NCBI GenBank assembly: GCA_023954475.1
Contig: JAMLHW010000001.1
Coordinates: 62,001-126,000, forward strand
Source of the DNA: Anaerolineae bacterium
GTDB taxonomy: Bacteria; Chloroflexota; Anaerolineae; Promineifilales; Promineifilaceae
Direction of reading: 5' to 3'
Length of the DNA: 64,000 nt
Of this stretch, positions 11,780 through 61,633 are shown one piece after another. Numbering within the stretch: the first letter of the stretch is position 1; each line of letters opens with the position of its first letter. The position numbers and the translations under genes were made by a program. The notes beneath the pieces were generated by a model that did not search any database, was not told the DNA's origin, and worked only from the letters and a program-made list of their open reading frames with translations.

Positions 11780-13054
11780 ATGGCATTGACGTTACACATT
11801 TCCACCCACGACGACCACATCCACGTCACGCGCGATGGTGCGGAGACGATCAAGAGCGCGCTGTCCGGTCTGCCTGACCGCGCCCAGGCGCTGGCCGCCC
11901 CGTACGAACATGGCCCGGCTCTCTTCAACGCTCTCGGCGGCGACGATTTGATGGACGCGCTGCGCCGCGAACGCGATAAAACCCTCTACCTGGCCATTCC
12001 GCAGGGCGACCCGGCCGACAGCCTCGCCTGGGAATGCGCTGTCAAACCACCGAAAACATTCCTGGTGCACCGCGTGCCGCTGCTGCGCCTGGTCGACGGC
12101 GAGGCGTGGCTCGACGACACGCCCGCGTCGGTGCGCCTGCTGGCTCTGGGCGCCGATGCACTGGTGGATAACCAGGGCCACGCGCGCAACACGCGGCGGC
12201 TCGACATCTTGCAGGAGATGCGTCAAATCGAGCGCACCTTGCACGACAGCGGCAAAGCGGTGACCGGCGAGCGCATTGCGCCGACGCCGACCGCTCTCGG
12301 CAACGCCCTGGGCGACGGGCGGCGCACGCTGCTGCACCTCTCCTGCCACGGTTCGCTGCTGCAAACCGACCACGGCCCCGTGCCCATCCTGCACCTGGAA
12401 GATGCCGACGGTGGCCCGACGACGCTGACCGGCGACGCCCTGGTCGACTTCACCACCCTGGCCGATGTGCGCCTGGTGCTGCTCAGCGCCTGCCGTACCG
12501 GGCAGGGATACGGAGGCCTGACGCGGGCACTGATCGGCGAAGGCGTGCCCGCCGCCATCGGCATGCAGGGCTTGTTCCCGGACGATTTGAGCGACGACTT
12601 TGCGGCAGCACTCTATCGTGGATTGCTGGCTGGGCAGCCGCTGGGCAAGGCATTGCAAGCCGCTCGCCAGGCATTACGCAATGTTGAGACGGCGGTCGGT
12701 CTGCCGGTGTGTTATGTGGCGCGAGGCGGCGATGTACCGCTGCCGCTGCAGGAGGGCCGGCCGCAGTTGCGCCGCCTCGACCTGGGGGCCAACGTCAGCC
12801 TGCCGCCGGCGGTGCAGGCGCCGGAGCCGCTGCTGGGCCGCAACGGAGAACTGCATGCGCTGGCCAAGCTGGCGCAGCAGCATACCGTGATCACCGTCAT
12901 CGGTACGGGTGGCATGGGCAAGACGGCGCTGGCCGCAGCCTACGCCCGCCGCTTCGGGCTGCGCTACCGCGACGGCGTGCTCGGCTACAGCTTTGCCGCA
13001 GGCGAGGTGGACGACGGCGACTTTCGGCGCGCTTTGCTCGAACTTTGTCGTTGA
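11780..13054 (+). CDS. CHAT-STAND protein, N-terminal part up to an in-frame stop
   Basis: The first 424 residues of a protein that would be 1,329 residues without a 72-bp insertion. Residues about 80-320 form a CHAT (caspase-like) protease domain: His 190 in LSCHGS and Cys 238 in LLSACRTG make the expected dyad. Residues from about 350 begin a STAND/NB-ARC ATPase, with Walker A GTGGMGKTA at 375-383. Translation ends at TGA 13052-13054 within the insertion. The stop is in the same frame as the downstream part, so this is no frameshift. Such fusions sense a trigger with C-terminal repeats, oligomerise with ATP, and activate a protease in defence or cell-death pathways (family knowledge). GC is visibly higher than in neighbours. 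Confidence 0.88.
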   Translation: MALTLHISTHDDHIHVTRDGAETIKSALSGLPDRAQALAAPYEHGPALFNALGGDDLMDALRRERDKTLYLAIPQGDPADSLAWECAVKPPKTFLVHRVPLLRLVDGEAWLDDTPASVRLLALGADALVDNQGHARNTRRLDILQEMRQIERTLHDSGKAVTGERIAPTPTALGNALGDGRRTLLHLSCHGSLLQTDHGPVPILHLEDADGGPTTLTGDALVDFTTLADVRLVLLSACRTGQGYGGLTRALIGEGVPAAIGMQGLFPDDLSDDFAAALYRGLLAGQPLGKALQAARQALRNVETAVGLPVCYVARGGDVPLPLQEGRPQLRRLDLGANVSLPPAVQAPEPLLGRNGELHALAKLAQQHTVITVIGTGGMGKTALAAAYARRFGLRYRDGVLGYSFAAGEVDDGDFRRALLELCR

Positions 13055-13115
13055 CAATCTTTCGGCACGCGTCCGGGAGTGGACGACGGCGACTTTCGGC
13101 GCGCTTTGCTCGAAC
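13007..13115 (+). repeat. 37-bp direct repeat bounding a 72-bp insertion in the CHAT gene
   Basis: Copies at 13007-13043 and 13079-13115 are identical (beginning GTGGACGACGGCGACTTTCG). They are separated by 35 bases that match nothing else noticed in the window and contain the in-frame TGA. The period is 72 bases, a multiple of three. Recombination between the copies would remove exactly 24 codons and restore one 1,330-codon gene. Confidence 0.95.
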
Positions 13116-15841
13116 GACTGGTGGGCGATGCCCTGGCCGACCAAAGCGCCGAGCAGCAGGCGCAGACGATTTTAGACGAACTGCGCCGCCGCGAGCTGCT
13201 GCTGCTGGTCGACAATTTCGAGAGCGTGCAACAGGCAGACGAGCGGGCCGACCATCCGCAGCACGCGGCGGCGAAGGCAATTTACGACCTGCTGGCCAAG
13301 ATCGCCAACAACGGCGGACGCCTGCTGATTACCAGCCGCCGCCAGCCGACCGGATTGAAGCACGAGCGGGTGTTCCCCGGCAAGGACCGGCTGCTGCAGG
13401 GAGTGGACGAACGGGCTGCAGCCGCGCTCTTTTACCAGAACAGCCCGCGTGCAGCCGAGCAGCGCGCGCAAAAGGACGACCGCGAGCTGCGCCGTGCCGT
13501 GCAGCGCCTGGCGCAAAAAGTGCATGACGTGACGGCAGGCCACCCGCTGGCGGTGGCGCTGCTTGGCAGCGAGTACGATAAGGGAGACGCGCCGCCGGAC
13601 ACATTTCTGGACAATTGGGCGGACGAACTGGCGGCGGCCCGCAGCCGAGGGCTTGACCGCCACCACGCCACGTTTGCCGTGGCGTTTGACCGCAGCTACG
13701 CGGCGCTGAGCGCGACGGCGCAGTGGCAGTTGCGGGCGCTGAGCGTCATCCCGTTTCCGTTTTTCGCCACCGGCGCGGCGCTGCTGTGGCCGGGTGACGA
13801 GGACGACGACGGAATGGAGGCGACAAAGGCGGCGCTGCGGGCGCTGGTCGACCGCTCGCTGATTGAGATCGATTTGCTTTACAACGACAAGACGCCGGCG
13901 ACCTACCGCTTCCAGCCGGCGGTGCAGCAGGAGGCGGCCCGCCGCCTGAGCGCCGAGGAAGACGAGACGCTGCAACCGCGCTTTGCCCGCTACGCGGCGT
14001 GGTTGTCACGCAAGGCGTATGATGAAGTTCACCAAGAAGGCGGCGGTGCGCTGGTGCGGCTGGTGCAGCCGACGCTCGACAGCCTGGCGAATGCCGCCGA
14101 CCATCTGGCGGACAGCGACCGCTGGTGGCATTTGCGGCGCGTTGGGTGGCTGATGAACGCCTTCGGCCGCACCGGCGACGCCCATGCGCTGCTCAGCGCC
14201 ACCCTCGCCGAACTCGATGCCGCTGCCGCCGGCGACGAGGCGCTCAAGGTGCGCAGCAGCATGGTGCACGAACTCGCCAACCTGGCGGTCACCCGCGGCG
14301 ACCTCGACCGCGCCCTCGCCCTCTACCAGGAATCGTTGCAGTTCCTGGAGCAAATCGGCGACATCCAAGGCAAGGCCGCCTCGCTGCATCAGATGGCCCA
14401 GGTCTTTCTCACCCGCGGCGACCTCGACCGCGCCCTCGCCCTCTACCAGGAATCGTTGCAGTTAAAGGAGCAAATCGGCGACATCCAAGGCAAGGCCGCC
14501 TCGCTCGCTAATATGGCCCAGGTCTTTCTCACCCGCGGCGACCTCGACCGCGCCCTCGCCCTCTACCAGGAATCGTTGCAGGGCTATGAGCAAATCGGCG
14601 ACATCCAAGGCAAGGCCGCCTCGCTCTCGATGATGTCCAATGTCTATTGGGAGCAAGGCGATCTGGAGCGTGCGAAAGAATTGGTTCAGCAAGCGGTTAA
14701 GCTCAACGAGACTCTTGGTGATTTGCATGGTTCAGCTATTAGGACAGTGAAGTTGGGGCAGATTTCTGAGCGGCTTGGACAAACGGCCGAAGCGCGATCG
14801 CATTATGAACGTGGTTTGACACTTCTAAGGCAAATGGGAGCTACCCGCGAGATAGCTCAGGTCGAAGGTTTGCTGGCCGCGCTCGACGGCAATCAGGCAC
14901 AGCAGCCTGACGATGTAGAAGCAATGCTGGCCCAACTGCCGCCGGAACAGCGTGCGGAAATGGAAGCCCAACTGCGCCAACTGCAAGCGCAACTGGCCGC
15001 CATGTCACCGGAAGAGCGGGCGCGTATGGAGACACAGGCGCGGCTGGGCCAGGCGGTGCAACAGGCACGCGGCGCGGCCGAGCGCCAACTCTGGCCCGCG
15101 ACCGTCACTTATCAGCAAGACGCCGTCGCTTTGGCCCGCCAACTGGTCGCCCAGGCACCTGAAGCTGAGCAGCGCGACGCCCAGATCGAGCTCAGTGTCC
15201 TGCTCTACAACCTGGCGGGCTACTACGGCAACGCCAACCGCCACGCCGACGCCGTCGCCTGCCTCGAAGAAGTGGTCGCCATCGACGCAGCAACCGGCCA
15301 CGAAGATTTGGCAGACGACCGCCGCGCCCTCGAAGCAGCCCGGCAACGTGCCGCTGCAGCAGAAACACACGCCGCGCCGCCACCGGACATTGCTGCCCTG
15401 CTAGCCAGCGTGCCCGCCGCCCAGCGCGCCCAGGTCGAAGAGGCGCTGGCACAGTTCAGCGACGAGCTGGCACAGATGGGGCCGGAGGAGCGCGACCAAC
15501 TGCTGCAAGGCATCGCTAACTTTGCCGCTCTGTCGCCGGAAGAACAGGCGGCGCTGGCAGAACAAAGCGCGTTCGCCCAAGTCGAAGCCCACCTGCTGGG
15601 CCAACTCGCCCCGCCAATCGCCGATCACGCTGCCGGTACGCTGACCGGGGAACAAGCCGCCGCCGTTGCCCAAAACATCGACGACGTGGCTGACCAGGTG
15701 GCGCAAGACGAGCGCCTGGGTAACCGGCGTCACGATCTCGTCGCCCTGCTGCGGCACACTGCTGCCGTCCTACGCGGCGACGACTCGGCACCGCCATTGC
15801 CCGCCGCCTACGCGGAGCAGTGGGCCGACTGGATGGGATAG
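13079..15841 (+). CDS. CHAT-STAND-TPR protein, C-terminal part
   Basis: This 920-codon frame continues the CHAT gene in the same frame after the insertion. It opens with the rest of the STAND ATPase: Walker B-like LLLLVDNFESV, LLITSRRQP sensor region, and a winged-helix-like segment. Then come TPR repeats, three nearly identical 40-residue units at 14281-14640 among them, and a long helical Ala/Gln/Glu-rich region rich in LPPEQRAEMEAQ-type segments. Started alone at GTG 13079 it would lack the protease and Walker A. The gene is followed by a hairpin and by a zinc-ribbon gene and a 3-TM gene that seem to belong with it. Whether it is expressed in this state is unknown. Confidence 0.85.
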   Translation: MDDGDFRRALLERLVGDALADQSAEQQAQTILDELRRRELLLLVDNFESVQQADERADHPQHAAAKAIYDLLAKIANNGGRLLITSRRQPTGLKHERVFPGKDRLLQGVDERAAAALFYQNSPRAAEQRAQKDDRELRRAVQRLAQKVHDVTAGHPLAVALLGSEYDKGDAPPDTFLDNWADELAAARSRGLDRHHATFAVAFDRSYAALSATAQWQLRALSVIPFPFFATGAALLWPGDEDDDGMEATKAALRALVDRSLIEIDLLYNDKTPATYRFQPAVQQEAARRLSAEEDETLQPRFARYAAWLSRKAYDEVHQEGGGALVRLVQPTLDSLANAADHLADSDRWWHLRRVGWLMNAFGRTGDAHALLSATLAELDAAAAGDEALKVRSSMVHELANLAVTRGDLDRALALYQESLQFLEQIGDIQGKAASLHQMAQVFLTRGDLDRALALYQESLQLKEQIGDIQGKAASLANMAQVFLTRGDLDRALALYQESLQGYEQIGDIQGKAASLSMMSNVYWEQGDLERAKELVQQAVKLNETLGDLHGSAIRTVKLGQISERLGQTAEARSHYERGLTLLRQMGATREIAQVEGLLAALDGNQAQQPDDVEAMLAQLPPEQRAEMEAQLRQLQAQLAAMSPEERARMETQARLGQAVQQARGAAERQLWPATVTYQQDAVALARQLVAQAPEAEQRDAQIELSVLLYNLAGYYGNANRHADAVACLEEVVAIDAATGHEDLADDRRALEAARQRAAAAETHAAPPPDIAALLASVPAAQRAQVEEALAQFSDELAQMGPEERDQLLQGIANFAALSPEEQAALAEQSAFAQVEAHLLGQLAPPIADHAAGTLTGEQAAAVAQNIDDVADQVAQDERLGNRRHDLVALLRHTAAVLRGDDSAPPLPAAYAEQWADWMG
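14281..14640 (+). repeat. Three tandem 120-bp TPR-encoding repeats
   Basis: Units at 14281-14400, 14401-14520 and 14521-14640 encode 40-residue TPRs. They are almost identical in DNA except at two short spots (FLE/LKE/GYE before QIGDIQG, and LHQMAQ/LANMAQ/LSMMSN at the end). Near-identity including third codon positions implies recent duplication or gene conversion. From about 14641 the base composition and codon choice change abruptly to lower GC. Confidence 0.95.
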
Positions 15842-15851
15842 CACCGTCCCG

Positions 15852-15884
15852 AAAAACCGGGTTTCTCAGAGAAACCCGGTTTTT
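15852..15884. terminator. Hairpin terminator, right palindrome flanking the CHAT gene
   Basis: Perfect 16-bp arms (AAAAACCGGGTTTCTC and its complement) with one central base and a T5 run. It differs from the 11651 element at only two arm positions. It lies 10 bases after the CHAT stop and just before the zinc-ribbon gene's ribosome-binding site, so it may also attenuate that gene. Confidence 0.85.
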
Positions 15885-15897
15885 GAACGGAGGAGCA

Positions 15898-16128
15898 ATG
15901 GAAAAACCGAAGCACTTGCTGTTGAAATGCAAATTCTGTGGTTACCAGTGGCTCGAGCCGATCGAATCGATACTGGATGAAATCGAGATCATCTATCGGG
16001 CAGACGGCGAACCGGTCGTGGAAACCACCGAACGGCGCATTCCGTGCAAGAACCCTGGCGGCTGCCCGCACGCCGTCATGGTCACCGTACCCGTCGCCTG
16101 GACGCGTGACGACGAGGATGCGTCATGA
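15898..16128 (+). CDS. Small zinc-ribbon-like protein, CHAT-cluster member
   Basis: A 76-residue protein with CKFCGYQW near residue 11 and C-K-N-P-G-G-C near residue 47, giving four cysteines for a zinc ribbon, then a short beta-strand tail. GGAGGAG precedes the ATG at an ideal distance. Its stop overlaps the next start (ATGA), so the two are translationally coupled. I do not recognise the family. Context suggests an accessory to the CHAT-STAND protein, such as a regulator or protease substrate, but this is inference. Confidence 0.8.
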   Translation: MEKPKHLLLKCKFCGYQWLEPIESILDEIEIIYRADGEPVVETTERRIPCKNPGGCPHAVMVTVPVAWTRDDEDAS

Positions 16129-40516: not shown

Positions 40517-40546
40517 TTGACCAGACTCGCTAGAGTACGGGATAAT
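40517..40546 (+). promoter_or_regulatory. Promoter of a leaderless GT-C gene
   Basis: TTGACC (40517-40522), 18 bases, GATAAT (40541-40546), then six bases to ATG 40553. The predicted transcription start coincides with the start codon. Confidence 0.75.
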
Positions 40547-40552
40547 ACCATT

Positions 40553-42526
40553 ATGGATGCAGATATAAATCAGCAAGATCACGACAAAGCCATGGCAATC
40601 GCTTATGCGCTGATAGGCGGGGGATTGTTGGTGCTTTTGAGCCAATTTGTCATGCATGAACGACCACATGAAGAGCGCTGGCAAGTTACGGTGCTTACTG
40701 TGATTGGAGCAGGTTTTTTTGCTGTTGGCCTCTGGCAATCCCAAACGACGCACCGGTTAGCGGGAAAGCGTTTATTGCAGGTAGCCGACTTTTTCGGCGT
40801 GCACGTTGGACAAGTTGTGCTACTTGTTCTTGCAGCTTGTTTTGCTGTGTTGACACGGTTAGCGGCCGGCAGCGGTCTAATGGCATGGCATGCGTGGGCA
40901 GCGTTGCTGTCATGGGCACTGGCGTGGACTTGTGTGATTGCAGGTAGCAACCGCAATGGGCGAGGGCGCATCGGCCGATTGGCGACATGGGAAATTGGTC
41001 TATTGGCAGCGCTGTTTATCGCTGCATTGGCGCTGCGCAGCTACAACATTGCCGGCATTCCCACAACGTTGGCTGGCGATGAAGCGTCGGCCGGCCTATC
41101 GGCCATTACCTGGCTGAATGGAGAAGCGAATAATCTATTCAGCATGGGCTGGTTCTCGTTTCCATCGCTGTTTTACGCCTTACAAAGTGTGAGCATTGGC
41201 CTTATCGGCCGAAATATCGAAGCGCTGCGCCTCTTATCAGCATTTGCCGGAGCGTTCACTGTAGTCGGACTTTATCTGCTTGCCCGTTCTCTTTTTGGGC
41301 AGTTGACGGCGTTTTTGGCAGCGGCATGTCTGGTAGCCAACCATTTTCACGTCCACTTCAGCCGGATCGGCTTACAAAATATTTGGGACGGCTTATTTCT
41401 CGTCATCGCCTTTGGCGGGCTATGGCACGGCTGGAAAAAAGGATGGCGCGGCGGATTCATCATTTGTGGCATTGCTCTCGGACTAGGGCAATATTTTTAC
41501 GTCGGTTTTCGCATAGTACCGCTTTTGGTAATAATATGGTCGATAAGTGCTGCCATTGTACAGTTTGACACGTTCAAAAAGAGATTACCCGACCTCATTT
41601 TGTCAGTCTATACGGCACTGATCATCTATTTGCCCCTGGCCTTATTCTATATCGAGAATCCGGTTGACTTCAACGCCCCATTGGAGCGTGTAACCATATT
41701 TAACGGCTGGCTGGATCAGATGGTACACGCCACAGGAAGCGCTGAATGGTCGATTATCCTCCAGCAAGCATGGCAAGCGGCGCAAGGTATCACCCATTTG
41801 CCGTTGCAACACTGGTATCCTGCCGGAGAACCGTTGCTCCTGGCCGGTGCAGCCGGCTTGTTTTTATTGGGTTTGCTGATTGCTGTGCTGCGTTTTGACT
41901 TGCGCTATTGGCTGGTATTATTGCCGCTGTTGGGCGTGATCGCGATCAGCGCGTTGAGTATGGATGTACCCGCTGCGCAACGCTACGTGCTGGCAGCGCC
42001 GTCGGTGGCCATATTGGTAGCATTGCCTCTTGCAGAGACAGCAAAATGGGTAGCCCGGGCCTGGCCTCAATTTCGGCCGATTGCGATCACTACTGCCATT
42101 ATCATCATCGCAATGTTGATGGTATTTGATATCGATTTCTACTTTAACGAATCGGCCGATAACTATTATCTGGGTGGAGGCAATGCATACACAGCTATGT
42201 ATATCGTCGATTATCTGGAGCAGCAGCAGAATCCGCATCCAATCGTCTACTTTTTCGGCTGGCCCCGCATGGGCTATTTGAGCATTTCTTCAATCCCTTA
42301 TCTGGCCCCTTATGCAGAGGGCATTGACGTCAACGAACCGCTTAACCAACCACCAGATTGGGAGCTGACCGGCGAAACAGCATTTCTGTTTTTGCCGGAA
42401 CGTGTCTCAGACCTCACTTGGGTAGAGAAAGCATACCCTGGCGGTATCATGACTAGTTGGCTGGATGAGAAAGAGGATCTGCAATTCATCGTTTACACGG
42501 TGTCTACAACGCAAGCAGGCTCTTAG
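40553..42526 (+). CDS. GT-C family glycosyltransferase (ArnT/PMT-like)
   Basis: A 657-residue polytopic protein with about 13 membrane spans. The first long loop contains LAGDEASAGLSAI, a DE pair typical of polyprenyl-phosphate-sugar-dependent GT-C enzymes. This is followed by the FSFPSLFYAL segment common in the ArnT/Pmt superfamily. A soluble C-terminal part of about 130 residues follows. It probably moves a sugar from a lipid carrier to an acceptor outside the membrane. The start at 40553 gives a charged N-terminus and leaves the promoter upstream. Confidence 0.82.
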   Translation: MDADINQQDHDKAMAIAYALIGGGLLVLLSQFVMHERPHEERWQVTVLTVIGAGFFAVGLWQSQTTHRLAGKRLLQVADFFGVHVGQVVLLVLAACFAVLTRLAAGSGLMAWHAWAALLSWALAWTCVIAGSNRNGRGRIGRLATWEIGLLAALFIAALALRSYNIAGIPTTLAGDEASAGLSAITWLNGEANNLFSMGWFSFPSLFYALQSVSIGLIGRNIEALRLLSAFAGAFTVVGLYLLARSLFGQLTAFLAAACLVANHFHVHFSRIGLQNIWDGLFLVIAFGGLWHGWKKGWRGGFIICGIALGLGQYFYVGFRIVPLLVIIWSISAAIVQFDTFKKRLPDLILSVYTALIIYLPLALFYIENPVDFNAPLERVTIFNGWLDQMVHATGSAEWSIILQQAWQAAQGITHLPLQHWYPAGEPLLLAGAAGLFLLGLLIAVLRFDLRYWLVLLPLLGVIAISALSMDVPAAQRYVLAAPSVAILVALPLAETAKWVARAWPQFRPIAITTAIIIIAMLMVFDIDFYFNESADNYYLGGGNAYTAMYIVDYLEQQQNPHPIVYFFGWPRMGYLSISSIPYLAPYAEGIDVNEPLNQPPDWELTGETAFLFLPERVSDLTWVEKAYPGGIMTSWLDEKEDLQFIVYTVSTTQAGS

Positions 42527-42611: not shown

Positions 42612-43214
42612 ATGACAACTAAACCCAAACGCATCATCGTCGGCATGTCTGGCGCGAGCGGTGCCGTTTATGGCATTCGTTTGCTGGAAGTGCTGCGTGA
42701 TGTGCCGCATGTGGAAACACATCTGGTTGTCAGTAGCGCCGCTGCACAGACAATCAGCCTTGAAACTGATTTTACGCCGTCACAGGTTGAGGCAATAGCC
42801 GATGTGGTTTACCGGTTTCGTGACATCGCAGCGGCAATTTCATCAGGTTCTTTCAAAACAGCCGGAATGGTAGTCGTGCCCTGTTCGATGAAGACCTTGT
42901 CGGGCATCGCCTACTCATTTAGCGATAATTTGTTGCTGCGAGCGGCTGATGTTGTCCTCAAAGATCGGCGGCGCCTGATATTGGTTTCACGTGAAACACC
43001 TTTGCACCTGGGGCATCTGCGTGCCATGACACAGGCAGTTGAAATGGGTGCCATTCTCGCGCCACCCATGCCCGCATTCTACCATCGGCCGAAAACTATC
43101 GATGACATCATAAACCAATCAGTCAATCGCATTCTCGATCTGCTCGAAATCGAACTGCCTCGAGATTTGTTCACTCGCTGGCAGGGGGCAGGACAAAGCG
43201 CACACAATGAGTAG
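42612..43214 (+). CDS. ubiX: Flavin prenyltransferase UbiX
   Basis: A 200-residue enzyme that makes prenylated FMN for UbiD-type decarboxylases. The N-terminal GMSGASGAVYGIRLLE binds FMN phosphate. VVPCSMKTLSGIAYS and VSRETPLHLGHLRAM are family signatures, and the C-terminal part has the usual ILDLL helix. GGAGAG precedes the ATG. It overlaps the next gene by eight bases. No ubiD is in the window. Confidence 0.94.
   Translation: MTTKPKRIIVGMSGASGAVYGIRLLEVLRDVPHVETHLVVSSAAAQTISLETDFTPSQVEAIADVVYRFRDIAAAISSGSFKTAGMVVVPCSMKTLSGIAYSFSDNLLLRAADVVLKDRRRLILVSRETPLHLGHLRAMTQAVEMGAILAPPMPAFYHRPKTIDDIINQSVNRILDLLEIELPRDLFTRWQGAGQSAHNE
42983..42998. promoter_or_regulatory. parS-like site inside ubiX (15 of 16)
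   Basis: GGTTTCACGTGAAACA differs from the bacterial parS consensus TGTTnCACGTGAAACA only in the first base. It also encodes the conserved UbiX segment VSRET, so it could arise by chance from coding needs. Confidence 0.5.
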
Positions 43215-45733: not shown

Positions 45734-45749
45734 TGTTTCACGTGAAACA
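45734..45749. promoter_or_regulatory. parS site (perfect consensus)
   Basis: TGTTTCACGTGAAACA matches the ParB-binding consensus at all 16 positions, and the palindrome extends one base each side. It is intergenic. The surrounding 45467-45789 (about 320 bases) holds this site and the promoter of the methyltransferase, and nothing else recognised. No parA or parB gene is in the window. Confidence 0.88.
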
Positions 45750-51362: not shown

Positions 51363-51849
51363 GCCTTGCCGGTGTGCTTGCCACCCTCATTTTCTGCTTC
51401 AACTGGTTATCACTCGCATCGACAGGTGACCGTCGTCTCTACAAGAAAATATCCACAGTAGGAAGCATAACAAATGTATATTTTAGTTGTATGTAGTAGG
51501 CCATGTGGATATGTGGAAAAGCCGTCTGCACCCCTATATGTAGTCTGTAATCGCAGCAAGCTGCCGTATGTGACGATATTTGGGGGTATACGTGTTTCCG
51601 GAAATGTGGATAACTGTGTAGAGAAATAAAAACCTCTTTTATCGTTGAATTCGGCCGAAAACAATGCCCGAAACGATAAAACCCCATATATGGGGCCTGC
51701 GTCCGTTAATACTAAACATATTCTGGAACATATTTTCGAAAAATGAAAATTGTTTTCCCCCATTACCCGGCCTTTTCCACAGATATGCCCATAGTTATCC
51801 ACAGAAATGCAATGCAATTCAGTCTAAATAATGCTACAATCGCGCCGCG
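51363..51849. other. Candidate replication origin: intergenic DnaA-box cluster
   Basis: A 487-base gap, AT-rich for this genome. Perfect DnaA boxes: 51605-51613 (TGTGGATAA) and 51795-51803 (TTATCCACA). One-mismatch boxes: 51449-51457, 51504-51512, 51512-51520 and 51773-51781. Between the groups lies an AT-rich run (about 51705-51755). Also seen: a perfect palindrome CCCCATATATGGGG at 51682-51695, and an inverted repeat TTTTATCGTT/AACGATAAAA (51637-51646, 51672-51681) enclosing a TTCGGCCGAA. dnaA and dnaN are not in the window, so origin activity is inferred. Confidence 0.6.
51833..51840 (+). promoter_or_regulatory. Extended -10 element of the CPBP-like gene
   Basis: TGC-TACAAT ends nine bases before ATG 51850, giving an almost leaderless mRNA. 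Confidence 0.55.
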
Positions 51850-53430: not shown

Positions 53431-55710
53431 CTACTCGAGCGTGACGGGCCATGTTACGGCATCATCGCCGTCGCGACGGGGGACGCGCACGAGTGTTGCC
53501 GGATCGTAGAGGCCGACGGCAATGGTGTAGGGTCCGGGCTGCAATTCGGCCGATAACATCAATTCATGCCTATCGCCAATCCACTCACCTGTTTGCCACA
53601 TAGTGGTCGGATAAAAGCCACCGACCGGTGGCCCGTCACCACTCGCAACCAGGTTCCCGGTTTCATCGATCAACTGTACAAATACGGTGTAATTGGTATC
53701 CGGTGTCGCTTCAGCTTGCCATGTTAGCGTCACCGGCACTGTTGCGCCGGGTGATAATGTGTTCGGTATGGTGTAGCCGCGCAGTGTGATCCCTTGTTCG
53801 AACGGGATGTCGAGAATGGTCGTCGGCTCGACGGGATTTTCGGCCGATGTCAATCGCCCTTCACCCACCAGAACAAATTCCAGTGGCGTACCATCAGCTG
53901 CCATCGCCGGCAAGTCGGAATCCGTGGCGACATCGTACAAGCCCACATCGAGGCGCAGCACAGATGGTGCAGCCGCGTCGGCATTGACACGTACGCCGTA
54001 CTCATCGCGCCAAATTTCTCCTGTGTGCCAGCGACTGGTCGGAACCATGCCCCAACCCGGATAGCGCGAAACATTGCCGACTGAGTCGAAATCGCGCCCC
54101 AGCAGATGAACTGTGCTGACGTAATTGTTTGCTACCGGCTCGCTTGCCTGCCAGTAGAGGGTGACGCGGATGAACGCATCGCTGCCCGGTGTTGTTGTCT
54201 GCTCAGGAGCGAGGTCGACGCCGACAAGTTGAATTGCGCCGTCAGGTGCCATGTAGGTGATTGGCCCAAATTCGGCCGAAGCCGGCACAGTCAACAGCGC
54301 TTGTGGCCATGCATACGCCGGACGAATTGTTATCCACGGAATCACCACAGCTATTACCAGAAAATAGCCGGTTATCCACAATTCTATCCACACTTTATGC
54401 CCAAAACGCCGTCTGAGCGCGCGTTCCCATGCTACCCAGCCCGCCGCCCAAAGCACGTTGACAGCGCCTAACGCCGGAAAAAGTAGCCGACCCTGAAAGG
54501 CCGGCGAGATGATATTCCAGCGAACGAGCAGCAGGAATAAAAGCACAGCCCACGCAGCGAGCAGCCACGTGCCGCTCGGGAAGTGCCCGCGCTCACGCCG
54601 GTATACGATCAGTCCGACCATACCACCTACCAACAACAGATTGCAGACAACGTAAATCCATTGCGGCGCGGCGACGTTGACGCCACCGAATAAGCCCCAA
54701 TACGTGCGATAGAATGTGCCGAATTCGGCCAACCAACCGCTTAGCTGCAATGGTGCGTCACGCGTTCCCTGCACCGCGATGAACGGGATGAGGCCGGTCA
54801 AATCACCGTGAAGTACCATATTGCGCACAAACCACCAGCCCGAAATGATCAGGATTTCTGTGATGATGATGCTGCCGCCAATCAATACGGGTCGCCAATT
54901 GCGTCGTTGCCAACTCTGCCACGCCAGCGCACTGCCCGTCAGCCCTAGCAGCCCGCCGACGCTGAGTTTGGTCAGGATACCCAGGCCCAAAACGATGCCG
55001 AGAACGATAAATTGAACAATCGTTCTCGACTCTGTTCCAATGACTTCTCCCGCCTCAAACTGTCGCCAGAGACGGACGAGGAGCCATATGCCCAGAGAGC
55101 CGAGAAAAATGGCGAGCGAATCGTTGTTGACCGCTGCGTGGACGAAGAGAAACATCGGATTGAACGCTGTCAATGCTGCGGCCAGCAATCCAACCCGTGC
55201 CGAAAACAACAATCGGCCGAGGTGTGCCGTCACAACAATCGTCCCTGCGCCCAATAGCAGTGATGCCAAGCGAATCACATTGACTGCCAGAATGGAGCCG
55301 CTGCCGGGGAATGCCTGCCGATCCGGATTGTGGATGATCAGGTTCTTGTTGTGAATCTGGTTAGGGTCGCCGACAAAAGCATGCGGATTGCGCTGGTGAA
55401 CAACAGGCAAATCAGATGTGTCGATGTCTGCCGTCAGCGCGGCCATCATGAGGTAGTAGAGTGGGGGTTGTGCGCCTTCCTGCAGCCAGCGCCCCGGATT
55501 GTCCGCATCGAGAATGACCAGTTCGCCTGTGGTTTGGATGTGCTGGACGACCGGATAATGCTTGTATTCATCGGAAGCTTCCAACGGCGGCGTAGCCCAG
55601 GCATAGACGACGCCCAACGCGAGAAAAGCGAACACAACTATGGCGAGAAGCGCCTGCCAATGGCGTTGACTGACGGGTAGAAGGGGCGAGAGTTCGGCCG
55701 AATTGATCAC
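53431..55710 (-). CDS. Large GT-C-like membrane protein with C-terminal beta modules (third of three)
   Basis: A 759-residue protein. About 10-12 membrane spans fill residues 20-480. The first periplasmic loop begins PPLEASDEYKHYPVVQH, where the DE pair is the GT-C catalytic/metal motif, and continues QPPLYYLMMAA. The final 270 residues are soluble and built of at least two beta modules with a recurring VGLYD signature (near 600 and 740). The last one reads VGLYDPATLVRVP. It probably glycosylates a surface polymer. One perfect DnaA box and several near ones lie inside the coding sequence. Confidence 0.8.
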   Translation of the reverse strand: MINSAELSPLLPVSQRHWQALLAIVVFAFLALGVVYAWATPPLEASDEYKHYPVVQHIQTTGELVILDADNPGRWLQEGAQPPLYYLMMAALTADIDTSDLPVVHQRNPHAFVGDPNQIHNKNLIIHNPDRQAFPGSGSILAVNVIRLASLLLGAGTIVVTAHLGRLLFSARVGLLAAALTAFNPMFLFVHAAVNNDSLAIFLGSLGIWLLVRLWRQFEAGEVIGTESRTIVQFIVLGIVLGLGILTKLSVGGLLGLTGSALAWQSWQRRNWRPVLIGGSIIITEILIISGWWFVRNMVLHGDLTGLIPFIAVQGTRDAPLQLSGWLAEFGTFYRTYWGLFGGVNVAAPQWIYVVCNLLLVGGMVGLIVYRRERGHFPSGTWLLAAWAVLLFLLLVRWNIISPAFQGRLLFPALGAVNVLWAAGWVAWERALRRRFGHKVWIELWITGYFLVIAVVIPWITIRPAYAWPQALLTVPASAEFGPITYMAPDGAIQLVGVDLAPEQTTTPGSDAFIRVTLYWQASEPVANNYVSTVHLLGRDFDSVGNVSRYPGWGMVPTSRWHTGEIWRDEYGVRVNADAAAPSVLRLDVGLYDVATDSDLPAMAADGTPLEFVLVGEGRLTSAENPVEPTTILDIPFEQGITLRGYTIPNTLSPGATVPVTLTWQAEATPDTNYTVFVQLIDETGNLVASGDGPPVGGFYPTTMWQTGEWIGDRHELMLSAELQPGPYTIAVGLYDPATLVRVPRRDGDDAVTWPVTLE

Positions 55711-55757
55711 GGTTTTCTCTGGTAGCTGTGACTGAAAAACATGCTACACGCAAAAAG

Positions 55758-55786
55758 TTATGCACATCAGAGATCGGTTATCCACA
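55758..55786. promoter_or_regulatory. DnaA boxes in the spacer between two GT-C genes
   Basis: TTATGCACA (one mismatch, 55758-55766) and perfect TTATCCACA (55778-55786) in the 84-base gap. Confidence 0.6.
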
Positions 55787-55794
55787 GTTATGCG

Positions 55795-58005
55795 CTACTT
55801 CTCCACAGCCACTGTTCCGATTTGGAACACGTCGCTGCCGGTCATTTGACCGTCAACAGAGACGGGTAAGCGATTGAAATCCGCATCGTATAGACCTATC
55901 CACAGGGGATAAAAACCTGTGGATAACTCATCCGGAATGTGGATAAAATAGTTGTCCTCAAATACTTCTCCGGCTTGCCATAGATGTGTAGGGTAGTCGC
56001 CGGACAACGGAACGGCATCACCTTGCGCTAACGGCGGCACATCTGATCGCCCGACATGCAGCAGCGTTGTCAGGTCACGGCCTGGCGGATCGATTACCGC
56101 CCATGTGACCGAAACGGCTACATTTGACCCCGGCTGCACCACATCTGGGTCAATTTCGGCCGAAACAAGCCCGATCTTTGTGTCGTCATCCCCCAGATAT
56201 GCTATAGGGTTATCCACATTTGTCCACATATTCGGCCGAATTGTCAACAGCCCCACGTCTGTGTCCGCGCCGTCGACCAACGCCACGTTTACGCGTGCCT
56301 GTGTCGGAGCAACGGCAGCCTCATCGAGCCGGATACCTACACGGCTGTGGATAACTTGCCCACTTTTCCACAGGTTTGCCGGAAATAATCCACCGCCGTG
56401 ATAGCTCTGCAATTTGCCGATCAACGTGTTTTCGCGGCCAAAAATGGTGATGACGACTTCCGGAACGGTTTGCGGCGGCTGTTGTGTTGTCCAATATAAG
56501 TCGAGCCAAACGATGTCACCAGGCTGCGTCGACTCGGTTTTCAGCTCAGCGGCGACCAGTTCGACGCCAAAACCCAGATTTTTATGCACAGGCGCGGCTG
56601 TCGGGGGAATTTCGGCCGAAATTTCGGGTAGTGCATAAATCGGCCGAATGACAAACAGCGCGCAGTAGAATGTTGTCACCAGTAGTATCCCGGCAAACGC
56701 CATGGCGACACGTCGCTGAACCGGCTGATGCAGCCGATCCAGCCATTGCGACAGGCCATATCCCAGCCCCAGCGCCACCTGCAGCAGCGCCGGAAACAGC
56801 AAACGCCCTTGCGCTGCCTTTGTTTGCAGCAAGAAGAGTACCATACCGGCGTACACCAGCACGACCCATCCGGCCAGCAACAGCGGCAGGCCCCAACGCT
56901 GCGGCCCGGATTCATCCGTATGTGTCCGCGTCGCCCGGCGCTGCAAAAACGCGCCGACAATGCTCAAAACAATAAGTGTCGTCCACAGCCATAGCACCCA
57001 GGAGGGTGGCGTGACATTGAACCAGCCAAAAACGCCGATCAGCGAGCGCCAGATGGCCGGCCATTCCGACAGGACTTGAGCCAAGGTGAAACCACGGTTG
57101 CCGCCGGCTTCGAGCACAAATTGGTTCGCCGCTGTCGGATCACCGTAGAGCTGCCAATTGCGCACCAGCAGCCATCCGCCTATGAGCAGCGCCAAACTGC
57201 CGACAACGGCCCATGCACCCACGAGCCGTCTCCAGCTCCAGCGATGCGCCCATGCCAGCACGAGTAAAAAGCCGACTGCGTAGACGAGCAGTAACAATCC
57301 GGCCGTTTTGCTCAGCAGCGCCAATCCAATTGTCAAGCCTAGCAGTCCCAATCGGCTCCACGAAACTGCTAGTCCTCCAACGCGAGAGTTTTGCCACATC
57401 CAAATCAACTGCCAAAGCGCAGCTGACGCCAGAAAGATGATGAGTACATCGTTGTTGACGTAGCTATGGAGGAAATTGAACTGTGGCAGAAAAGCGACAA
57501 GCGTCGTTGCTAGCAAGGCACGGTATGGTTTGTCGGGCCACAGGGTGCTGCCTGCGCCAAAGATGAAAAACAAGGTGCCGAGGCCGAGCGCGACTGAAAA
57601 GAAGCGCAGCATGTGAACGCCGAGCGCCCAATCCTGCCACGGCCACATTTCGGCCGATGTGTGTACCAAGAAGTTGCGATTGGTGGGAGACCCAGCATCG
57701 CCGAGTTGTACAAACGGATTTATCCACACATTCTCCACAGGATATTCGACGGCAATCGGCCGAAGTAACACACTCGCCAACCCGTAATACAAGGGCGGTT
57801 GGGCCGCTTCTTGCCCCAGCCACGCATCGGCTGCGCCGTCAATTACCGGAAGTTGACCTGTTTCTGCCAGAAAATGGGCAACGGCGAAATGGTGGTGTTC
57901 GTCAGGCGCTTCAAAGAGCGGATTGACCACACTATACGTGACCGTGACTGCCAGATAGCCAATCAGGAGCAGAATCAGCCAGCGGTTTGCGTCGTGTTTG
58001 GTCAT
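55795..58005 (-). CDS. Large GT-C-like membrane protein with C-terminal beta modules (second of three)
   Basis: A 736-residue paralogue of the neighbour. The first loop has FEAPDEHHHFAVAHFL with the acidic pair and QPPLYYGLASVL. About 11 spans reach residue about 430. Two C-terminal beta modules follow, with WKSGQVIHSRVGI and WQAGEVFEDNYFIHIP segments, and IGLYDADFNRLPV near the end. Five perfect DnaA-box sequences occur in this gene, read in different frames and orientations. It is 15 bases after the methyltransferase gene. Confidence 0.8.
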   Translation of the reverse strand: MTKHDANRWLILLLIGYLAVTVTYSVVNPLFEAPDEHHHFAVAHFLAETGQLPVIDGAADAWLGQEAAQPPLYYGLASVLLRPIAVEYPVENVWINPFVQLGDAGSPTNRNFLVHTSAEMWPWQDWALGVHMLRFFSVALGLGTLFFIFGAGSTLWPDKPYRALLATTLVAFLPQFNFLHSYVNNDVLIIFLASAALWQLIWMWQNSRVGGLAVSWSRLGLLGLTIGLALLSKTAGLLLLVYAVGFLLVLAWAHRWSWRRLVGAWAVVGSLALLIGGWLLVRNWQLYGDPTAANQFVLEAGGNRGFTLAQVLSEWPAIWRSLIGVFGWFNVTPPSWVLWLWTTLIVLSIVGAFLQRRATRTHTDESGPQRWGLPLLLAGWVVLVYAGMVLFLLQTKAAQGRLLFPALLQVALGLGYGLSQWLDRLHQPVQRRVAMAFAGILLVTTFYCALFVIRPIYALPEISAEIPPTAAPVHKNLGFGVELVAAELKTESTQPGDIVWLDLYWTTQQPPQTVPEVVITIFGRENTLIGKLQSYHGGGLFPANLWKSGQVIHSRVGIRLDEAAVAPTQARVNVALVDGADTDVGLLTIRPNMWTNVDNPIAYLGDDDTKIGLVSAEIDPDVVQPGSNVAVSVTWAVIDPPGRDLTTLLHVGRSDVPPLAQGDAVPLSGDYPTHLWQAGEVFEDNYFIHIPDELSTGFYPLWIGLYDADFNRLPVSVDGQMTGSDVFQIGTVAVEK

Positions 58006-58020
58006 CGGACTATTGGCTGG

Positions 58021-58830
58021 TTAAGCCGGTTTCCGTGCTTGTAATGAGAACAGAAACGGAATGATGCCGTGTTGATGAGCGGGCAAACGCCACCAGCCGT
58101 CTTCCCCTTGCACCATAAACGGGAATTTTGCGCGTGCTGCGTAGGGAAATTCGTGAAGAAACTCAATGTGCAGGCCGGCCGCGATGAGTGCATTGATCAC
58201 GTCGCCCAGACTGTAATCCCATACATAGGAGACGCTGCTTTCCCCTTCGTTGTCAGTGGCATAGGACCCGGTTGCTTCGATGCGCTGTGGTGTGTCTGAA
58301 TGGAAGTAGGATCGTTCGGCTTTGAATTCGTCGTGGGGTTTCGGCCGAAAAACGCGAAACATAGGATGATCTTCCACAATGTAGAAGATGCCACCGGGTT
58401 TGAGGTAGTGCGCGATTAGTTTGCCCCACGACGGCAAATCAGGCAATCCGTGTAATACACCATACGACGTAAAAACGATGTCGAACGCACCTACCAGCAC
58501 CTCGGTCAGTTTGTAGATGTCACTGCAATAGAATTGCGCCGGGATGCTGAGGTCATCGCTGAGTGATTGTGCCAGCGCAATAGCCTTTGGTGAAAAATCG
58601 ACGCCGGTAACAACTGCGCCCCGTCGCGCCCAGGCAAGTGTGTCCATGCCGAAGTGACACTGCAGATGCAACAGCGTTTTCCCTTGAACATTACCAACTT
58701 CCGTCAACTCGATAGAACGCAGCCGGTCTTTACCGGCCTTGAACCCAGCGAGATCGTAAAAAGACGATGCTTGATGTTCATCAGTCAATTGATCCCAACG
58801 TTTCCGGTTGGCCTGGAGATAATCGTTCAT
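58021..58830 (-). CDS. Class I SAM-dependent methyltransferase
   Basis: A 269-residue protein. Motif I is LLHLQCHFGMDTLAWARRG, followed by VTGVDFSPKAIALAQ and later FDIVFTSYGVLHGL, the standard Rossmann methyltransferase layout. The substrate is unknown. The gene lies between two glycosyltransferase genes on the same strand, with 15 and 22 base gaps, so a sugar or surface-glycan methylation is a reasonable guess. Confidence 0.85.
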   Translation of the reverse strand: MNDYLQANRKRWDQLTDEHQASSFYDLAGFKAGKDRLRSIELTEVGNVQGKTLLHLQCHFGMDTLAWARRGAVVTGVDFSPKAIALAQSLSDDLSIPAQFYCSDIYKLTEVLVGAFDIVFTSYGVLHGLPDLPSWGKLIAHYLKPGGIFYIVEDHPMFRVFRPKPHDEFKAERSYFHSDTPQRIEATGSYATDNEGESSVSYVWDYSLGDVINALIAAGLHIEFLHEFPYAARAKFPFMVQGEDGWWRLPAHQHGIIPFLFSLQARKPA

Positions 58831-58852
58831 TAAATCAATCTCTTTTTCGGAA

Positions 58853-61633
58853 TCATGGCACAGTGATCGTCGTCAGTAAGAGGACATCATTTGGCATTGG
58901 TATGCCATTTTGCGACACGGGCACACGGACAAGCGTTTCCGGATCGTAGAAGCCGACGAAAATATCGTAATCCCCAGGTGGCAACGGGCTTATCCCCAGG
59001 TTGTGGATATCTTCGAGAATTTCACCGGGTCGCCAGCCATCAGTTGGGCGCAGCCAATCGACCGGAATGCGGTCTGATTGCGTCACTGCTTCGATGCCAC
59101 CAGAGGGGACAACGTGGACAAATACGGTGTAGCTCTGTGGCGCGTCGCCGGTCGCTTCCCAATACAGGGTGAGGCTGTCGCCGTTTTGCACATAAGCACG
59201 CACCTTACCCACATTGATAAATAGGTTATCCCCAACAGTTACAAGGTTATCCACAGGTTTCAGTTCAGTTATCAATGGCCATGCTTCAACGGTCACTTCG
59301 CCAAACAGGTTGGCATCGCTGCGCCACGGCAATCGGCCGAAACGGCTGGGCACTGGTTCATCACCGTCAAATACAGTCCAACGCAGCGAAAATTGCCCCG
59401 GCGCAGTCTCTGGCGGGAAGTAGATACCAATCGGCTGTGCGATGCGAGTATCTGTCGGGAAATGGCTGCCGGATAGCCAGGATGGTCCGACTACGCCACC
59501 ATCGACGCGCAAAACATCCCCATTGTGATCGATGACTTCGAGCTGATAACGCAGGCTGTCGGCAAACGTGGTTTGCCATACCAGGGTGACGGGCAGTGGA
59601 TGACCTGGTTTGACCGCTTCAGTGCTGATGACATCGACAAGATGCAAGCCGTTGGCAAAATGCAATCCCGTATTGGGATCGCTTTCGGCCGAACTGCCTG
59701 CAATCTCTACTTCCAATAGCGGTTCCCATTCGCCTGAACCTGTTTCATCCGCATAATCCCAGGAACCGACAAGTAACTCATACGTGCCCGGCGGCAAGCT
59801 GTCCGGTAATTCCAACTGGTAATTGGTGCGCTGCAATGTTGTATCAGGCAACGGCGGCGCAGCGTCCATATAAAATGGTGCCACGTTTTTGGCCAACAAT
59901 TCGCCGTCCGGGGCACGCAAAGCCAATTGCACACCGTGCTCCGCTGAGGGGGCAGCGGCATCCCAGAATAGATCGACCCACAGGTTATCCACAGCTTTCT
60001 CAGGCATTATCCCCAACCGTGCGCCTCGTAGAACCGGCAATCCGTCTCCCTGCCACGTCTGTGCCACAGCATCCGACGGTAATGTCTCCACGCCAAATGG
60101 AACACTCTGATATGCTGTGATTTTCATCTCTGTGTTGACGCCGTGGAACCAGCGTTCATCAATGGGCAACAGTTTGCCTTCGATTTGCGCCCCGACAACG
60201 TTTTCCGGGTCGCGATTGTCTGGAGGCGGTTCAGCCATGTACCAGACGCGGTCATAGTCGGCAAACAGTTGTAGTAAATCGTCGATCGTGCCGGGATGTG
60301 CACCGTGCGGGTAGGTGGGCAGGGCGGTGACGGCGATGTCGTCACGCGTGCGGTAATGTTCGTGCAGCGGCATGAGTAGCGCGTTGTGATAGAGCACGAC
60401 ATCGTTAGCGCCGGCATGTGATTCGATGTAGGCGACCATGCCGCGATAATCTTCTTTGGTGAATCGGATGTCGTGGTACAGATTATCGAGAGCAATGTGT
60501 GATGCCCAGAGTACGATGGTGATGCCCAGAATGGCGACCGCACTGTGCAACATGCCCCACTTTTTGTGCCGCTCTGCAGGCTGCGGCCAGAAAAGCGACG
60601 CCCCGCGAGCCAACAAAATAAACAGGGCCGGCGAACCGACCATGATGTGGCGCACGCCGAGATACATTGGTTTGAAAAGAGCCGAGCCGACTATTAAACC
60701 GAGCGGTGTGGCGAACAGGTAGATGAGGAGAAACAGGCGTGACAACCAGGCGTTTTCGGCTTTGCGGCGGTAAACGATGCCGGCGAGGAGCAGTAGCCAC
60801 AAGCCGATGGTGAACACCTGAATGAGCAGCGCGTTGTGATCGACTGTTCGGCCGAAAACAAAGCCGCGTACCACATCCTCAACAATTACCCACGGCGGGA
60901 CTGTCGTGTAGCCGGTTTCCGGTGCATCGGACAGCAAGCGGCTCGTGACCAATGGCAGCAAGGGTAAAGTCAGCAGGAAAGCCAGCACGGCGCCGCCGAC
61001 CAGCCATTTCTTCAATCCCGCGTGCCACAACAACCATGCCCAGAGTATACCCTGGCCTAAAATCAGGAATGCGGCTGTGTAATGTGTCCAGAAAGCCAAT
61101 CCGGCCAGAATGACATAGGACAGCAGCCACCCGACCAGCCTTTTTTTGTTCTGACTATCGGCTAGGGCACGCCACAGCGCATAGGACGCCAATGCCATCA
61201 GCAGGACGGCCAGCGTATACATGCGTGCTTCTTGCGCATACCAGACTTGCAACGGATTGACGGCGGCAAACAGTGCTGCGATGAGGCCGATAGTGTCACT
61301 GTGTATTTTTCGGCCGATTTGAAACACGACCGGCACGAGTAAAACACCGAATAACAGTGGCAAATAGCGCCAGGCAAAGTCTGTGCCGCCGAGCAGGCGT
61401 TCACCGACGTGGGCGACGAGGTAATAGAGCGGTGGATGGGTATCGCGTGTTGCCCAGCCCTGAATGTCGATCTCGTTCCTGAGGATTTTAGCGAAGTCAT
61501 AGCCGGCGCGTACCGGCGTCAGGCCCTCGTCGTGCCAAAAGCTCATCGCATCCAGATTGTGTATCCGTATAGCGAAGGCGAGCAGGATTAACACGCCCAA
61601 CAATGTCAGGCGTTGATTGCGCGTCAGGTTCAT
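58853..61633 (-). CDS. Large GT-C glycosyltransferase (PMT/GT39-like) with C-terminal beta modules (first of three)
   Basis: A 926-residue protein. AMSFWHDEGLTPVRAGYDF supplies the DE pair in the first loop, and HPPLYYLVAHVGERLLG follows, both hallmarks of Pmt/ArnT-type enzymes. About 12 spans reach residue 400. A soluble part (about 400-530) comes next, then several beta modules to the C-terminus, the last ending VGFYDPETLVRVPV. It opens a four-gene operon. Two perfect and four one-mismatch DnaA boxes lie in its coding sequence (58990-60015). Confidence 0.85.
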   Translation of the reverse strand: MNLTRNQRLTLLGVLILLAFAIRIHNLDAMSFWHDEGLTPVRAGYDFAKILRNEIDIQGWATRDTHPPLYYLVAHVGERLLGGTDFAWRYLPLLFGVLLVPVVFQIGRKIHSDTIGLIAALFAAVNPLQVWYAQEARMYTLAVLLMALASYALWRALADSQNKKRLVGWLLSYVILAGLAFWTHYTAAFLILGQGILWAWLLWHAGLKKWLVGGAVLAFLLTLPLLPLVTSRLLSDAPETGYTTVPPWVIVEDVVRGFVFGRTVDHNALLIQVFTIGLWLLLLAGIVYRRKAENAWLSRLFLLIYLFATPLGLIVGSALFKPMYLGVRHIMVGSPALFILLARGASLFWPQPAERHKKWGMLHSAVAILGITIVLWASHIALDNLYHDIRFTKEDYRGMVAYIESHAGANDVVLYHNALLMPLHEHYRTRDDIAVTALPTYPHGAHPGTIDDLLQLFADYDRVWYMAEPPPDNRDPENVVGAQIEGKLLPIDERWFHGVNTEMKITAYQSVPFGVETLPSDAVAQTWQGDGLPVLRGARLGIMPEKAVDNLWVDLFWDAAAPSAEHGVQLALRAPDGELLAKNVAPFYMDAAPPLPDTTLQRTNYQLELPDSLPPGTYELLVGSWDYADETGSGEWEPLLEVEIAGSSAESDPNTGLHFANGLHLVDVISTEAVKPGHPLPVTLVWQTTFADSLRYQLEVIDHNGDVLRVDGGVVGPSWLSGSHFPTDTRIAQPIGIYFPPETAPGQFSLRWTVFDGDEPVPSRFGRLPWRSDANLFGEVTVEAWPLITELKPVDNLVTVGDNLFINVGKVRAYVQNGDSLTLYWEATGDAPQSYTVFVHVVPSGGIEAVTQSDRIPVDWLRPTDGWRPGEILEDIHNLGISPLPPGDYDIFVGFYDPETLVRVPVSQNGIPMPNDVLLLTTITVP

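Follow-up and report, generated by a model that had tools for sequence, protein, structure and literature searches.

In Bacillus subtilis, the DnaA-box clusters termed DBCs are located near oriC. In the summary of Okumura 2012 given in PMC5295017, deletion of all six DBCs resulted in early initiation, indicating that they limit free DnaA. The E. coli datA locus limits initiation by DnaA-ATP hydrolysis with IHF between defined boxes (PMC5835720, PMC5295017). On the scale of the whole chromosome, DnaA boxes of E. coli and Salmonella accumulate toward the origin, which is favourable for titration (PMC12371093). DnaA sites inside open reading frames have been described in B. subtilis codV and rplB; they are strong in vitro and not readily detected in vivo (PMC4447404). 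Within the literature searched, we found no paper dealing with DnaA boxes in this Chloroflexota group, none describing a DnaA array conserved within a gene, and no comparable element for Chloroflexota. Here, we compare with these systems a field of DnaA boxes embedded in three glycosyltransferase genes beside a probable chromosomal origin.

Results

DnaA boxes are clustered in an 8.4-kb stretch

The window, i.e. the whole stretch of 64 kb analysed here, covers positions 62001-126000 of contig C1 in a genome (G000) of 5.12 Mb (5,120,153 bases, 26 contigs). It contains 11 perfect copies of the DnaA box TTATCCACA, all between 51605 and 59993, compared with 0.29 expected from dinucleotide shuffles of the window; none was found on either strand within the first 51.5 kb. 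This exact recount agrees with a first-pass annotation of the sequence, which had placed eleven boxes from 51.6 to 60.0 kb and none upstream. When one mismatch was allowed, 40 sites were obtained (9.75 expected), 31 of which lie at 51.4-60.0 kb. Genome-wide, the density is uneven, as 11 of only 37 perfect copies in 5,120,153 bases fall within this one 8.4-kb stretch. The reversed word, used as a composition control, occurs 35 times in the genome, so the motif is clustered without being enriched overall.

Eight perfect boxes are located in open reading frames of three GT-C glycosyltransferases (GT1 to GT3), exactly those eight that had been listed before. One (55778) lies in the gap between GT1 and GT2, and two (51605 and 51795) in an intergenic gap at 51363-51849. 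The genes and arrays of the field are as follows.

53431..55710, minus strand: GT1, GT-C (PMT-like) membrane glycosyltransferase, 759 aa, Pfam PMT_2 and PMT
54330..54392, plus strand: array in GT1, TTATCCACG at 54330, TTATCCACA at 54372, CTATCCACA at 54384
55758..55807, plus strand: triad at the GT1/GT2 junction, TTATGCACA -20- TTATCCACA -21- TTCTCCACA, with the geometry of the GTx triad described below and a counterpart in genome G031
55795..58005, minus strand: GT2, GT-C membrane glycosyltransferase, 736 aa, Pfam PMT
55896..55946, both strands: array in GT2, CTATCCACA at 55896 (plus), TTATCCACA at 55918 and 55938 (minus), the latter two 20 bp apart; read FIH-IPDE-LST
56210..56228, plus strand: pair in GT2, TTATCCACA / TTGTCCACA, 10 bp apart
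56346..56372, both strands: pair in GT2, TTATCCACA at 56346 (minus) and TTTTCCACA at 56364 (plus)
57720..57739, plus strand: pair in GT2, TTATCCACA / TTCTCCACA, 11 bp apart
58021..58830, minus strand: methyltransferase-like gene without boxes, in the interval between GT2 and GT3
58853..61633, minus strand: GT3, GT-C membrane glycosyltransferase, 926 aa, Pfam PMT_2
58990..59010, both strands: sites in GT3, TTATCCCCA at 58990 (plus) and ATATCCACA at 59002 (minus)
59205..59255, plus strand: triad in GT3 with 21/21 bp spacing, TTACCCACA, TTATCCCCA, TTATCCACA; the last two at the aligned codons of G031
59985..60015, plus strand: pair in GT3, TTATCCACA / TTATCCCCA, 22 bp apart

With several boxes at a density above chance, near but outside the probable oriC, the GT1-GT3 field resembles a DBC at the sequence level.

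Two other features of the window were recorded. There are 46 copies of the palindrome TTCGGCCGAA and 98 of TCGGCCGA, across genes and gaps, which suggests a HIP1-like palindrome over-represented throughout the genome. Positions 12001-16000 have 62-70% GC, compared with mostly 50-58% elsewhere, and carry long open reading frames at 11780-13054 and 13079-15841.

A probable origin next to the cluster

Judged from its layout and neighbourhood, the 51363-51849 gap very probably represents oriC. The features of this region are the following.

51363..51849: probable oriC, intergenic between an ANTAR response regulator gene and a CAAX-protease gene, 43% GC
51773..51803, plus strand: oriC box pair TTTTCCACA / TTATCCACA, 22 bp apart and oriented toward the CAAX gene
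45734..45749 (C1:107734): perfect parS TGTTTCACGTGAAACA within a methyltransferase open reading frame
42983..42998 (C1:104983): parS-like site with one mismatch

Six boxes with at most one mismatch are found in these 487 bp (+51449, -51504, -51512, -51605, +51773, +51795), and a 50-bp stretch of 20% GC at about 51706-51755 is a candidate unwinding element. Counted from the first box, the layout is + 0, - 55, - 63, - 156, + 324, + 346. In genome G005, the region upstream of the CAAX-protease gene carries boxes at + 0, - 56, - 64 and - 158, followed by a plus-strand triad at 319/339/360; the arrangement in G025 is nearly identical, including the 20/21 triad. An AT-rich intergenic box cluster is thus present, and its order, orientation and spacing are kept in both relatives. 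The two parS sites are 6-9 kb from the gap. The cumulative GC skew of C1 has its minimum at about 155-160 kb, some 35-40 kb from the gap, with a weak slope. No dnaA gene adjoins the gap; dnaA is located on contig C14, with no boxes around it. A position beside dnaA is common for bacterial origins and no strict requirement. The earlier proposal that the box cluster lies beside the origin is in line with this assignment, as it adjoins the probable oriC.

In relatives, the conserved partner of oriC-like arrays is the CAAX-gene side. The idea that the gap next to the ANTAR regulator is kept at that locus in all relatives was rejected, because no clusters were found downstream of the regulator orthologue. 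GC skew computed for G023 from 20-kb samples every 200 kb was too noisy to place its origin. Palindromes of the form TGTTTCCCGGGAAACA, some of them closely paired (G001:C98:102855; G023:C1:2271043 and C2:902642), could represent the form that parS takes in some relatives. Elsewhere on C1, beyond the window, a 523-aa open reading frame (L022, C1:38435-39415 of G000) contains two tandem DnaA/DnaC-like AAA domains and possibly encodes a double helicase-loader-like protein; similar-length reading frames with two DnaA/DnaC-like matches are present in several relatives.

Boxes exceed the codon expectation and are helically phased

The first-pass annotation had argued that protein constraint does not explain the boxes, since several reading frames and both orientations are represented among them. 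They do indeed occupy three frames and the two strands. For GT1, GT2, the methyltransferase gene and GT3, codons were permuted among positions of the same amino acid in 2000 shuffles, leaving protein and codon content fixed. The eight perfect boxes observed in these four genes contrast with a mean of 0.54 and a maximum of 4, which shows that protein constraint is insufficient as their cause, and the 14 one-mismatch boxes compare with a mean of 5.1 and a maximum of 12. On the reverse strand, TTATCCCCA reads GGG-GAT-AAC (Gly-Asp-Asn), a motif that recurs in the GT-C protein domain. Protein sequence may therefore account for some one-mismatch sites.

Of the same-orientation pairs formed by the 31 sites at 51.4-60.0 kb, seven have a spacing of 20-22 bp (0.20 expected, at most 3 in 20,000 random placements) and three a spacing of 10-12 bp. 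These spacings correspond to one or two helical turns, i.e. the boxes are helically phased.

Boxes in GT1-GT3 are shared with a sister genus

In GT2 homologues from 29 other genomes, a clear box cluster was found only in G031, which represents a sister genus; G024 has one perfect box just outside its homologue. In G031, the methyltransferase gene, GT1, GT2, GT3 and a kinase/regulator pair are found on one 28-kb contig, which has boxes of its own. Its GT1-GT3 genes contain four perfect boxes, compared with 0.16 in codon shuffles. Two arrays are matched in position between G000 and G031: the triad at the junction, spaced 20/21 in either genome, and two boxes of GT3 that fall on identical codons in the alignment. 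The junction triad is the more clear-cut of the two, because the GT3 stretch in question also shows conservation at the protein level (VDN, GDN). The GT2 tree places G000 and G031 together as sisters (support 99), and no other genome examined was found to carry boxes in GT1-GT3. The expectation that relatives share the boxes in orthologous genes is therefore borne out by the sister genus, with arrays at matching positions, and fails for the other genomes, whose GT2 homologues lack clusters. For the same reason, we rejected the boxes as a general property of the GT-C family. That the boxes are selected DNA elements is well supported. Selection on each single GT1-GT3 box is unproven, because G031 alone shares boxes and most individual sites of the two genomes are not matched in position.

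A box triad inside GTx is conserved across the family

A search of 59 relatives for phased pairs with the pattern TTATCCNCAN{1,13}TTNTCCNCA gave 112 matches, compared with 12 for the reversed pattern. Many were beside dnaA or adjoined an Hrq1/MrfA-like helicase gene, and these arrays are presumably origins. The largest group of remaining matches falls within one orthologous GT-C gene, here called GTx. Its triad, TTATNCACA -20- TTATCCACA -21- TTATCCACA with all three boxes in the same orientation, is embedded in the coding sequence at more than 1 kb from the gene start. It is present in 28 of the best 30 homologues, G000 included. In G000, whose GTx is located at C16:12802-14658, the triad has decayed to CTATACACA, TTATCCACG, TTATCCACA; the open reading frame at 40517-42526 of the window was considered as the GTx orthologue and rejected. 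Addition of loci from GTDB contigs yielded 51 non-redundant sequences, 42 of which have the triad, counted as present when at least two boxes stood at its place. Those GTx loci that have names belong to MAGs labelled Promineifilum, Ardenticatenaceae, Anaerolineae and Chloroflexi bacterium, which marks G000 as a Chloroflexota bacterium of the Anaerolineae type.

A comparison of synonymous sites among relatives had been proposed in the first-pass annotation as a check; the interpretation given there draws its strongest support from this family-wide conserved triad, which is not part of the window. The seven most codon-biased of 373 testable GTx columns are all box codons. Leucine is encoded by TTA in 38 of 39 and 38 of 43 sequences (background 8.5%), serine by TCC in 42 of 42 and 42 of 43, threonine by ACA in 40 of 42 and 37 of 40, and valine by GTT in 25 of 26, while residues next to the box codons vary freely. 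In the first box, variation is mainly confined to the fifth base, which is the free base of the published DnaA-box consensus TTWTNCACA (PMC5835720). This pattern amounts to selection on DNA inside the GTx gene.

On a GTx tree built by a quick method with SH-aLRT support, triad presence requires two changes, as it marks the family, is missing from outgroup lineages and was lost once inside the family. The loss occurred in the clade of G016 and L299, a neighbour of G000 (support 88). G016 belongs to the same genus as G031; GT1-GT3 boxes are thus found just where the GTx triad has decayed or, at least in that genus as represented by G016, been lost. Lacking the GTx triad, G016 has an array in a menD-like gene (L200, 6544-8274). 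In G007, a genome without a close GTx homologue, a triad of identical form is located in DNA lacking GTx similarity, which is what one would predict if the element mattered as DNA, independently of the gene. Other phased box pairs were seen at the start of uvrA in G018 and upstream of an alanine racemase gene in G029, and a similar site in G014 (loci L155, 4113-4132; L172, 7894-7934; L173, 7809-7849).

Discussion

From these sequence comparisons, which draw on draft MAGs, the region probably combines a chromosomal origin with an adjoining field of DnaA arrays in GT1-GT3 that would sequester or regulate DnaA, the GTx triad being the equivalent element. The GT-C genes thus seem to have a second role as DNA that controls chromosome replication. 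DnaA would bind the phased boxes cooperatively on one helix face, and the field would draw free DnaA off the origin or alter its nucleotide state, either of which could limit re-initiation. Being at most 9 kb from oriC, the field would be duplicated straight after initiation. The phased, oriC-like geometry, the proximity to oriC and the early duplication fit a DnaA sink or a regulator of the DnaA state. In most of the family, the single GTx triad would serve as the equivalent element; in the G000 lineage, where it has decayed, the function may have moved to GT1-GT3. We read this, from few lineages, as the relocation of one DnaA-binding function between coding hosts. Binding of DnaA in vivo, the sequestration effect and the relocation history are what we infer from these patterns. 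More generally, it seems likely that the Promineifilum/Ardenticatenaceae-type Chloroflexota MAGs keep an in-CDS DnaA control element in surface glycosyltransferase genes, conserved letter by letter at synonymous sites although the proteins are only about 50% identical, and re-creatable in a new coding host beside oriC once the old copy decays.

Titration alone offers no explanation for the repeated choice of GT-C hosts. The main rival takes DnaA as a transcription factor that binds in the GT-C genes and there blocks elongation or sets its timing, so that envelope glycan synthesis is coupled to replication initiation. GT-C hosting in GTx, in GT1-GT3, in a GTx paralogue of G027 (L160) and in a DUF2142-like membrane gene of G025 similar to GT1 (L189) seems, in our judgement, more frequent than chance, and a polysaccharide-export gene before GTx in G024 and a penicillin-binding protein gene after it in G009 point the same way. 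Nevertheless, we regard this explanation as unlikely, given that the arrays lie more than 1 kb into GTx and away from the promoter, that GT1-GT3 boxes occur in both orientations relative to transcription, that gene order after GTx is variable, that a triad occurs in G007 outside any GTx gene, and that the G016 array is hosted by menD.

The boxes might instead extend the origin, with outlying sites raising local DnaA or helping the initiation complex to assemble and so promoting initiation. They begin less than 2.5 kb from the oriC-like gap and share the 20/21 geometry of the oriC triad, and G025 has a second cluster of 11 boxes about 13 kb from its oriC. In the genomes checked, however, GTx is on another contig than dnaA and the oriC-like arrays (weak evidence, the contigs being short), so the element seems to work without adjacency to oriC, and we consider such a promoting role somewhat less plausible still than transcriptional coupling. 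It is very improbable that the boxes merely follow from the protein sequence and codon usage of GT-C C-terminal domains. VGDN/LGDN codons do yield TTATCCCCA, and Val-Asp-Asn contexts can yield boxes; against this stand the excess over codon shuffles in G000 and, independently, in G031, the near absence of boxes from GT2 homologues of other genomes and from the methyltransferase gene, the use of three frames and both strands, the noncoding members of the junction triad and the codon constraint in GTx. The best reading of the sequence is that the GT1-GT3 field works like an origin-side DnaA control cluster, for which we do not claim identity with datA. The titration locus proposed in the first-pass annotation is supported in part.

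Replication-control sites of the datA/DARS type have been described as non-coding, whereas the GTx array overlays a protein gene. Its extreme codon constraint across some twenty genera provides a sequence handle on initiation control in an almost uncultured phylum, and the GTx and GT1-GT3 arrays would allow DnaA titration to be tested readily beyond E. coli and Bacillus. Moreover, scans of coding DNA for synonymous constraint can expose initiator-binding loci missed by intergenic searches.

Among the known systems, the B. subtilis DBCs resemble the field in comprising several box clusters near but outside oriC. Here, as far as sequence can tell, the clusters differ in lying within GT-C coding sequence, in their 20/21-bp phasing and in having a sister element conserved family-wide at synonymous sites. 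Like the negative regulator datA, the field combines dense strong and one-misfit boxes away from oriC. The datA locus, where DnaA-ATP hydrolysis requires IHF, is non-coding, whereas eight of the nine perfect boxes outside oriC lie here within open reading frames. Compared with the broad chromosomal trend of E. coli and Salmonella, 11 of 37 perfect boxes are concentrated in 8.4 kb, mostly in three genes. The codV and rplB sites of B. subtilis are likewise inside open reading frames, unlike the phased, family-conserved array described here. Finally, the GTx triad is reminiscent of ColE1 DARS, a three-box element (PMC5835720, PMC5295017); in the latter, two boxes need the correct orientation, and in GTx the three boxes share one orientation, with 20/21-bp spacing.
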